Shown piece by piece: positions 45,858-49,394 of a stretch of DNA of 64,000 nucleotides. Both the position numbers and the translations under genes were made by a program. The first letter of the stretch is position 1, and each line of letters opens with the position of its first letter. The notes below the pieces were generated by a model, which saw only the letters and a program-made list of their open reading frames with translations, ran no database searches and was not told the origin of the DNA. The DNA is taken from NCBI GenBank assembly GCA_964035015.1, contig OZ036012.1, forward strand, positions 3,277,585 to 3,341,584, read 5' to 3'. This stretch comes from Corallium rubrum. Its lineage: Eukaryota; Cnidaria; Anthozoa; Scleralcyonacea; Coralliidae.

Positions 45858-46386
45858 TCAAAAACATGGATATTCTGAAATTTCTTGTAAACTACATTGC
45901 TCATTGCAGCATTCTTCCGTGGCTCCTGTTGGATTGCCGGCAGATCGAGAAAAACGGCGATTGAAAAAACGTTTTGCTTTCCAAGATTCTAGGAATGGGC
46001 TATCTGGAAAAAAATATGTGATTACTTGAGCGATTGATTAAGTAAGAAACTAGCGGGGGCTATATAAGCAATTAATAATAATGATAAAAACAACAACAAC
46101 GACGACGATGTCGACAAAGAAACTAACAACAACAGCAACACTAGCAATATAAACAGCAACGATACCAACAACAACAACAGCAGCAGCAGGAACATCATCA
46201 CCAACAACAATAATAATAATATTTAATAATAACATTTATTTATACCATCACTACCACCACTACTACCAACAACAACAACACCAACATCACAACCACCAAC
46301 AACAACAGCAGCAGCGGGAACACCACCACCAAGAATATCACCACCACTACCAACACCAACTCAACAACAACAACACCACCAACACC

Positions 46387-46418
<32 letters not shown>

Positions 46419-46494
46419 CAACAGCAACAACAACAACACCACCACCACCACCACCAACAGCAACACCTGCACCAACATCACCACCACCACCAAC

Positions 46495-46540
<46 letters not shown>

Positions 46541-46557
46541 CGAACACCAACGACACC

Positions 46558-46612
<55 letters not shown>

Positions 46613-46632
46613 CCTGCACCACCACCAACACC

Positions 46633-46664
<32 letters not shown>

Positions 46665-46871
46665 CAACAACACCTGCACCACCACCACCACCAACACCAA
46701 CAACAACAACAACAACAACAACACCTGCACCACCACCACCACGAACAACAACAACAACAACAACAACACCTGCACACTACCATCACCACCACCACCTGCA
46801 CCACCATCATCACCACCACCACCACCACCACCAACACCTGCACCACCACCACCACCACCACCACCACCACG

Positions 46872-46902
<31 letters not shown>

Positions 46903-49394
46903 CCTGCACCACTACCATCACCACCACCACCTGCACCACCACCATCACCACCACCAACAACAACAACAACACCTGCACCACCACCACCAACAACAACAAC
47001 AACAACAATACCACCAATGCCAACAACAACACTGTATTCAAATTAAAAGCATACAGAAATACAATTAACTCGCAGAGGGTGAACTATTTTACAAGTATTA
47101 CACAGTCATGAGAAGTAAGCTTTAGGTATTTTGTGTTGTGTTTGTAATATTATCTCACAAGTGTAACTCAAGCTTCGTAGAGATCGATCCAGACATCTTG
47201 TTTATGAGTGTTTTGGCTGTTTAGAATTAAGTGTTGATTTTACAACTGTCATCGAGTTCACCCTTACACTGGCGTTGAATATATTATTACATGGTCTAGA
47301 AAATTTGCTTATTTACAACTGTCATGGCTGTCATGAGCTTTCCATATTCGTGGGACTAATAAGTGGGGCACGTCTAGACGGAATAAGTCGATGTGAATCA
47401 CATGTTTTTAAAAATTGCTTGTCTAGGTTAGTGTAGTCTTGTAAAGTAAATGATTTGAACCTAGGAGTATCAGTAGATGTTTGTTGAAGTTGATCATCTA
47501 GGCATAGTCCCTAGAATTATATTGTCTGGAGACGCGGTGAACATCAAAGCGGTTAACAATGAGCTACAATTTAGGTTGAGGGTGGCAAATAAGGTGCACA
47601 ATCTTTTGTTTTACGTTCATTAATATTTATAAAGCAACGTTGCTATTGGTTGAATACTTCATTATACCAAAAATACAATATGTTCAGCAAGCGTTAAGGT
47701 GAAATAAGGTGAACAAACGTGAACAAAAACCTATAGAACAAAGACTTTGGCCGCGTTTCCAGACAATTTATTTCTAGGGACTATGATCTAGGTTAGTGTA
47801 GTCTTGAGAAAGATTGTTGGTAGTAGTGAATGACGTTATAAAGTAAATGGATTGAGCCTAGGAGTATCAGTAGATGTTTGTTGAAGCTGATCATCTAGGT
47901 TTATAGTGTAGTCTTGAGAAAGCTGGTTGGTGGTAGTGACTGACGTTATAAAGTAAATAGTTTGAACCTAGGAGTATCAGTAGATCTTTGTCGAAGTTGA
48001 TCATCTAGGTTAGTGTAGTCTTGAGAAAGACTGTTGGTGGTAGTGACTGACGTTATAAAGTAAATGATTTGAACCTAGGAGTATCAGTAGATGTTTGTTG
48101 AAGTTGATCATCTAGGTTAGTGTAGTCTTGAGAAAGACTGTTGGTGGTAGTGACTGACGTTATAAAGTAAATGGTTTGAACCTAGGAGTATCAGTAGATG
48201 TTTGTTGAAGTTGATCATCTAGGTTAGTGTAGTCTTGAGAAAGACTGTTGCTGGTAGTGAGTGACGTTATAAAGTAAATAGTTTGAACCTAGGAGTATCA
48301 GATGTTTGTTGAAGTTGATCATCTAGGTTAGTGTAGTCTTGAGAAAGATTGTTGGTAGTAGTGACTGACGTTATAAAGTAAATGGTTTGAACCTAGGAGT
48401 ATCAGTAGATGTTTGTTGAAGTTGATTGCCTAGGTTAGTGTAGTCTTGAGAAAGACTGTTGGTGGTGACTGACGTTATAAAGTAAATGGTTTGAACCTAG
48501 GAGTATCAGTAGATGTTTGTTGAAGTTGATTACCTAGGTTAGTGTAGTCTTGAGAAAGATTGTTGGTAGTAGTGACTGACGTTATAAAGTAAATGGTTTG
48601 AGCCCAGGAAATTCAGTAGATGTTTGGTGGTAGTAGGAGTATCAGAAAATGTTTGTTGAAGCTGATCATCTAGGTTAGTGTAATCTTGAGAAAGACTGTT
48701 GATGGTAGTGATAAATGGAAATGAGAAAATACTTCCTCCTAAAAATAATATAGCTGTCATTTAACATATGGATCAAGTATTTGATACGTGTAATGACAAA
48801 AACAAGTTCAAATCTAAAATATTTAATTTAATATGTCAAAAACATGTTTAATGTAATGTGTCAAATGTTCAACCATGTCATGTCATGAACTGAATATGTG
48901 GGAACCACGTGTTTTGCATACTAGAAGTTTACACGTAAAGCTTTGAAACCATGTATAACTGCGCAGCGCAGCAGACTAGACTGTCTGGTAGCTCTATTTG
49001 CGTTCCTTCCTTCCTTCCTCCCTCCCTCCCTCCCTCCCTCCCTCCCTCCCTCCCTCCCTCCCTCCCTCCCTCCCTCCCTCCCTCCCTTCGTTTGTTCGTT
49101 AAAGAAATTACATTTTAAAATAATTATGAAGAAGCTTAGCCTACCTTCTGTTAGATCTCTCCGCTTTCTTTTTCCTTGTGTAGTCTGCTGTACGCTGCTC
49201 AAAGCGGCCGCAGCACACTCCGGATATTTCCTCCCGCAACATTGTGCCCAAGCGGCGACAAATGCCTCGCCACAATAAGTGTCTAAAGGTCCGGGTTTAT
49301 TCGTCTCGTTGCAAGATGTTACATGAAGTATTAGAATGACCAGGCAGAGTACCGCGATGACGTTTTTGTAAATTGTGTTAAAACTTGGAGACAT
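45858..49394 (-). CDS. Insulin-like peptide precursor, two coding exons
   Basis: Coding exons are 49145-49394 and 45858-46003, giving 131 residues of a secreted hormone precursor. Residues 10-28 are a hydrophobic signal peptide ([14 protein letters not shown]), followed by an N-glycosylation site at N29. The B chain has [16 protein letters not shown]41 and C53 are 11 residues apart with Gly after each, exactly as in insulin. KRKRR (75-79) is a prohormone-convertase site. The phase-1 intron (donor AAG/GTAGGC, acceptor TTTTTTTCCAG) falls in the C peptide, the conserved insulin-family position, and the two halves join in frame. The A chain follows a second site (RFSR, 100-103) and reads [22 protein letters not shown], CCx3Cx9C against the usual CCx3Cx8C. 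Two extra cysteines (C52, C60) are unusual. A TGTGTGTTATTCAG acceptor directly precedes the ATG, implying a 5'-UTR intron as in many insulin genes. Subtype is unassigned. Confidence 0.85.
46080..47035. repeat. CAA/CCA trinucleotide tract in the insulin-like gene intron
   Basis: Nearly 1 kb of CAACAA and CACCAC runs, with the recurring word AACACCTGCACCACCACC, makes a higher-order minisatellite. Long Leu/Val and Cys/Trp peptide readings across it are artefacts. Confidence 0.95.
47400..48710. repeat. 107-bp tandem satellite in the insulin-like gene intron
   Basis: About ten units contain CCTAGGAGTATCAGTAGATG, TTGATCATCTAGGTTAGTGT and AGTGACTGACGTTATAAAGT. Spacing is about 105-107 bp between 48075 and 48496; flanking units are more diverged. 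Confidence 0.9.
49003..49088. repeat. CCTT/CCCT microsatellite next to the insulin-like B-chain exon
   Basis: A few CCTT units lead into about 17 CCCT units, ending 57 bp from the exon's splice donor. On the transcribed strand it is a purine (GGGA) tract inside the intron. Confidence 0.95.

Follow-up and report, generated by a model that had tools for sequence, protein, structure and literature searches.

The standard insulin A chain carries four cysteines in the arrangement CCx3Cx8C. Among the closest known systems, described here from the available parts of the papers cited, is the precursor IlO1_i1 of the sea anemone Oulactis sp., which has the order signal peptide, B chain, C-peptide and A chain, a Cx11C B chain with glycine after the first cysteine, one extra cysteine pair at the B-chain N terminus, A-chain cysteines at positions 7, 8, 12 and 21 (x8), and a Pfam Insulin E-value of 1.7e-6 (PMC8698791). 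In its text that paper writes the A chain as CCx[4]Cx[8]C; the four positions are those named for the synthesis. Exaiptasia ILP-Ap04 has two chains and six cysteines, those of its 28-residue A chain at 8, 9, 13 and 22 (x8) (PMC10971979). Molluscan insulin-related peptides possess a fourth disulfide; one passage of the paper gives three bonds joining A to B plus a single A-internal one, and another passage mentions an additional B-chain bond (PMC12343078). In genes of relaxin, Dilp8 and Dilp7 type, the B- and A-chain exons are separated by a phase-1 intron within the C region, and Dilp7 genes have a further intron, of phase 2, separating signal from B chain (PMC11863921).

The gene examined in the present study lies in a window of 64,000 nucleotides (the whole stretch of DNA analysed, C46:3277585-3341584) of a genome of 474 Mb in 312 contigs. 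The comparison with cnidarian insulin-like peptides that the original prediction had suggested shows the same precursor order, Cx11C B chain with following glycine, single extra B-chain cysteine pair and a similar E-value (3.5e-6) as in IlO1_i1, and the two-chain plan and probable A-chain length of 28 residues seen in ILP-Ap04. In contrast to both, the last A-chain spacing is x9. The cysteines predicted for the mature chains number eight rather than the six of ILP-Ap04, and the extra pair adjoins and follows the second canonical B-chain cysteine instead of lying at the N terminus as in IlO1_i1. Unlike the arrangement in molluscan peptides, both extra cysteines are in the B chain, and the fourth bond is predicted from sequence. 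The phase-1 intron in the C region, which had been put forward as typical of the family, is indeed the arrangement described for the relaxin, Dilp8 and Dilp7 types in the available text of PMC11863921, although the second Dilp7 intron and the relaxin receptor motif of the B chain are both absent here. We consider this very probably to be an intact cnidarian gene of the insulin family (PF00049), with an anthozoan as the most likely source. Genes of this kind are known, but the cysteine pattern is an unusual variant common to two paralogues.

Gene anatomy and family membership

Two minus-strand coding exons, joined in phase 1, encode a precursor of 131 residues followed by a stop (MSPSF...EYPCF), in which signal peptide, B chain, basic sites and A chain succeed one another (window coordinates):

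49395..49402, minus strand: TTATTCAG immediately 5' of the ATG, acceptor-like, possible 5'UTR intron
49145..49394, minus strand: coding exon 1 (signal peptide, B chain and C-peptide start), 250 nt, phase-1 end, conserved in the paralogue
49311..49394, minus strand: putative signal peptide, about residues 1-28 (approximate end), hydropathy peak 3.8 in a 12-residue window
49215..49280, minus strand: B-chain core, residues 39-60, CG-x9-CC-x6-C, 11/22 residues identical to the paralogue
49158..49172, minus strand: KRKRR basic site, residues 75-79, putative cleavage
46004..49144, minus strand: phase-1 intron of 3141 bp, GTAGGC...TTTTTTTCCAG
45858..46003, minus strand: coding exon 2 (C-peptide end, A chain and stop), 146 nt, conserved in the paralogue
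45945..45956, minus strand: RFSR, probable C/A cleavage site, residues 100-103
45861..45944, minus strand: probable A chain, residues 104-131, CCx3Cx9C, with 11/19 of residues 113-131 identical to the paralogue

On re-reading the sequence, the exon coordinates, 146-bp second exon, 3.1-kb intron, KRKRR site and 131-residue length originally proposed all hold, as do the splice sites and their matching phase (donor GTAGGC; acceptor TTTTTTTCCAG, preceded by a 19-nt stretch free of AG). The residues R103-S104-A105 at the C/A boundary are also kept in the paralogue. There, TGTCTTTCAG lies 4 nt 5' of the ATG, and both genes may have a 5'UTR intron ending at or near the start codon. In the window gene, none of four polyA-signal words was found in the 500 bp 3' of the stop codon; AATAAA is present in the paralogue.

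Insulin-family identity, which the original prediction had tied to a profile hit on both chains, was borne out. The joined protein matches Pfam Insulin (PF00049) at 28.4 bits (E 3.5e-6, cut-off 23) over residues 39-128, corresponding to positions 2-80 of the 81 in the profile. Exon 2 by itself reaches 20.3 bits, under the cut-off, and neither exon 1 alone nor its frame continued into the microsatellite gives a Pfam Insulin match. The Cx11C B chain and the signal-B-C-A order with basic sites accompany the profile score as features of membership. The A-chain signature PS00262 reads CC-{P}{P}x-C-[STDNEKPI]-x3-[LIVMFS]-x3-C. Both paralogues have one extra residue before the last cysteine and match a version lengthened by one position; because the strict signature fails, we assign membership on the profile, as a variant. 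A phmmer search of PDB at E <=10 gave 11 matches. Insulin or IGF-II chains account for eight of these, at E-values no better than 0.36 (up to 5.5) and with the best stretch on the A side, and the remainder are unrelated chains. These values count against the assignment, as do the failure of the strict signature and the missing polyA words. A CCAP Pfam match in the joined protein (E 0.12, 12.7 bits versus a cut-off of 27) was sub-threshold and was rejected. The gene had been described as hidden, and a six-frame search of the genome with the insulin profile accordingly gave no match at E <=0.001, a threshold at which no control matched either.

Elsewhere in the window are two single-frame rhodopsin-type GPCR genes, at 5976-7073 and 24603-25706 on the minus strand (7tm_1, 160.1 and 150.7 bits), whose resemblance to each other, judged by eye, would fit a local GPCR cluster. 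Rfam models at gathering thresholds gave no match in the window.

A co-linear paralogue and controls against chance

A tblastn search of the genome with the joined protein recovered, besides the gene itself, two co-linear segments at C46:2619578-2619721 (E 0.0018) and C46:2621597-2621728 (E 0.19). These belong to a paralogue on the same contig, about 702 kb from the window gene and on the opposite strand:

C46:2619548-2619761 and 2621595-2621734, plus strand: paralogue exons, with a phase-1 intron of 1833 bp (GTACGT...TTTTAACAG), encoding 117 residues

Its protein scores 25.9 bits against Pfam Insulin and aligns with the window protein from end to end (58.9 bits, 40/131 identical), and a phase-1 intron in the C region is predicted in both genes. 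Identities amount to 11/22 in the B core, 11/19 in the A core, 8/34 in the leader and 11/42 in the C region, and to 55, 67 and 38 of 117 at codon positions 1, 2 and 3. With the chains most identical and the third codon position lowest, the pattern is one of protein-coding selection on both chains. On its B/C side the paralogue has just KK as a basic site. Among 300 DNA shuffles, one scored as well as the paralogue alignment for exon 1 and 19 did so for exon 2. The four flanking stretches compared, two of them at the ends of the introns, were without alignment (shuffles as good: 228 for donor to array, 46 for the 5' flank, 125 for the acceptor side and 200 for the 3' flank), and the duplication looks old for this reason.

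Searching the whole genome with the insulin profile at E <=10 gave two scored candidates, both of them the A-chain exons of these two genes (E 0.81, for a match that starts upstream in the intron and crosses two TGA codons, and E 1.7). Other insulin genes may be missed, as only the best candidates were scored and exons were searched apart. The paralogue used as query recovered the window gene and one weak match (C28:3320548, E 2.2), rejected as it is without the insulin cysteine pattern.

How readily such motifs arise was gauged against simulated windows. CGx10C occurs five times in the window against a simulated mean of 2.5, so that the B motif alone proves nothing, whereas CCx3Cx8-9C without further cysteine occurs at two places, and 20 simulated windows gave one match in total (mean 0.05). 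The second A-like motif, a CCx3Cx9C at +9997 (window 9817-10080), was rejected: a stop lies six residues upstream, the surroundings are repeat-rich by eye, and the sole plus-strand Cx11C in 1000-10200 (at 1497) is 8.5 kb away. This look-alike shows the A-chain motif by itself to be weak evidence. The frequency of B-like motifs and the appearance of an A-like one at +9997 are what chance open frames beside microsatellites would produce, but the frame and splice sites of the present gene are intact and both chains are conserved in the co-linear paralogue, and we regard chance, or a dead gene, as extremely improbable. Of the controls against chance, this paralogue at a second place in the genome is the decisive one.

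The position of the acceptor was considered in the same way. The 8 kb past the donor contain 495 AG sites, of which 199 lead to a tail of at least 15 residues and seven to the A-chain motif, all seven reading one and the same exon. As the motif stays in frame from each of these, the true acceptor could be another AG up- or downstream, such as 46024 or 45988, with the C-peptide alone altered. We think this very unlikely, however, since 46003 has a long T tract and the AG-free zone, as does the paralogue acceptor, and the two agree in phase and almost coincide in the alignment.

Cysteine framework and intron repeats

The B-chain Cx11C and A-chain CCx3Cx9C spacings of the intact insulin-family gene were confirmed; what had gone unremarked is the length of the x9 spacing and the presence of two extra B-chain cysteines. 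In each paralogue the last two A-chain cysteines are one residue further apart than in the standard x8 arrangement, and the B chain follows the pattern CG-x9-CC-x6-C, that is, the canonical Cx11C (Cys41-Cys53 in the window gene, Cys37-Cys49 in the paralogue) with one extra cysteine immediately before the second canonical one and another seven positions after it. The window precursor contains 10 cysteines, including two within or adjoining the signal peptide, and the paralogue contains eight. Each gene would thus place eight cysteines in the mature chains, which suggests a fourth disulfide in the mature peptide. The pattern of an x9 A chain with these extra B cysteines was not met in a literature search confined to sources other than supplementary cnidarian alignments (including coral sequences), and the same search gave no further paper on cnidarian insulin gene structure or spacing.

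The introns of both genes are rich in simple repeats:

49019..49086, minus strand: perfect GGGA array (sense) of 68 bp, 59 nt into the intron (imperfect array 49005-49087)
47786..48626, minus strand: intronic 107-bp minisatellite
46267..47031, minus strand: period-3 microsatellite in the intron (TTG/TGG on the gene strand)
3391-3618, sense strand, in a numbering where 3049-5235 corresponds to C46:2619548-2621734: paralogue GGAA/GGGA tract

The paralogue GGGA array, at nt 197 of its intron, is 160 bp long and lies within a longer GGAA tract from nt 129. The intron of that gene (1.8 kb) consists almost wholly of GGAA/GGGA repeats, with 95% purine on the sense strand. A GGGA array in the same orientation early in both introns is suggestive, albeit seen after the fact, and inheritance of a common array is not provable because the donor-to-array stretches do not align. 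Genome-wide, perfect GGGAx8 gave 11,550 + 11,747 overlapping matches, the places listed being eight arrays in the first 6.25 Mb of contig 1, and GGAAx8 gave 40,589 + 39,704 matches, the places listed being four arrays in the first 2.3 Mb; within the stretches listed the density is one to two arrays per Mb of each kind. A G-rich repeat of the human INS promoter can form G-quadruplexes and i-motifs (PMC12852952, PMC11336075), with regulation credited to the i-motif rather than to quadruplex stability in the available text of PMC12852952. In the present genes, by contrast, the G-rich repeat is intronic.

Other repeats in the window include a 19-bp satellite that fills its end (61332-63998; about 140 copies, 95% matches), and tandem units with words like TTTTAYTCTGKCTAACRCCAGA on either strand, seen by eye at 17978-18831, 20043-20578, 50542-50851 and 59484-60111. 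A single TTTTAYTCTGKCTAACRCCAGA-type unit lies upstream of the paralogue (about 2910 in the numbering of its stretch), a pattern as in a dispersed repeat family.

As a tentative proposal, the two genes may represent a separate insulin class, defined by CCx3Cx9C and a B chain with vicinal CC and a downstream cysteine. Such a class would have either a fourth disulfide internal to the B chain or a shifted B-A pairing, in which the leading cysteine of the vicinal pair, in a Cx10C register, would pair with the x9 A chain; it may be the whole ligand set for the one insulin receptor detected. The intronic sense GGGA array might aid splicing or expression, much as expression of the human insulin gene is influenced by a G-rich repeat close to it.

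Receptor exons and possible function

A search of the genome for the Recep_L domain gave two same-strand exons among three candidates scored, with a kinase-start exon downstream on the same strand:

C15:11018718-11019062, minus strand: Recep_L exon (L1 domain), E 5.2e-20 in the domain search
C15:11007593-11007709, minus strand: Recep_L exon, E 8.6e-4 in the domain search
C15:10983986-10983789, minus strand: kinase-start exon

Among the best 60 of 119 matches, the L1-domain exon is closest to insulin-like receptors (E ~3e-27), with LET-23 at 4e-22 and ErbB-3/EGFR from 1.4e-19. The kinase-start exon has insulin receptor 7sl1 as its best match (E 1.2e-19), and the best outside the insulin-receptor family is 1.7e-5 among the best 60 of 102 matches. 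From their strand and order we infer that these receptor-like exons, spread over at least 35 kb (C15:10983789-11019062, minus strand), belong to one transcript. The same contig carries a fluorescent-protein exon (C15:1058146-1058367) with red fluorescent proteins as its best matches (E 2.5e-20, best 60 of 310 matches). These are DsRed proteins, of anthozoan origin, and the exon thus suggests an anthozoan genome.

In the mechanism that we propose, the transcript would be spliced across its one repeat-filled phase-1 intron, the precursor would enter the secretory pathway, cleavage at basic sites would free the C-peptide, and disulfides would link the B to the A chain. The peptide would then most likely serve as an endogenous hormone or growth factor, with the insulin-receptor tyrosine kinase encoded in the same genome as its receptor (insulin/IGF route). 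We favour a secreted hormone or growth factor because of the signal peptide, the dibasic and RxxR sites, the paired-cysteine chains and the receptor-kinase exons in the genome. The product of this cnidarian-type insulin-like gene is probably a hormone, and its action through the insulin receptor appears fairly likely. That a cnidarian insulin can influence insulin physiology is shown by ILP-Ap04 from a sea anemone, which reduced blood glucose in zebrafish (PMC10971979). On the other hand, binding to the human receptors for insulin and IGF-1 was not observed for a sea-anemone insulin in the available text of PMC8698791, and family membership is therefore no proof of receptor action.

A real gene could also encode a secreted venom component (cnidoinsulin) instead of a hormone. 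Insulin-like venom transcripts are reported from 28 of 34 sea-anemone species, with cnidoinsulins in 20 (PMC10972341), and the available text of PMC10971979 treats sea-anemone insulins, including the glucose-lowering ILP-Ap04, as venom. The assignment in PMC10972341, however, rests on similarity in the text available, and PMC8698791 found weak channel effects alongside the lack of human receptor binding and judged a role in prey capture unlikely. The standard A-chain spacing is also absent in both paralogues, and we hold a venom function to be quite unlikely.

The relaxin receptor motif in the B chain is RxxxRxxI/V. Neither B chain, one of which reads CGTDFTEVWKICC, has this motif when read by eye, which argues against action through a leucine-rich-repeat GPCR of relaxin type rather than a receptor tyrosine kinase. 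Such receptors (LGRs) are known in cnidarians (PMC9545775) and the phase-1 intron is common to relaxin-type genes (PMC11863921), according to the available parts of these papers; on balance we judge this route rather unlikely and retain the insulin-receptor tyrosine kinase as the probable partner.

Little is known of the insulin-family ligands of early-branching animals, and genes of this type, being split and fast-evolving, escape detection in six-frame searches. A profile search on joined exons followed by a check for a paralogue offers a general method for finding genes missed by single-exon searches. Two paralogues with one non-standard cysteine frame, together with clear insulin-receptor exons in the same genome, allow a concrete test of how much change the insulin fold tolerates while still signalling.
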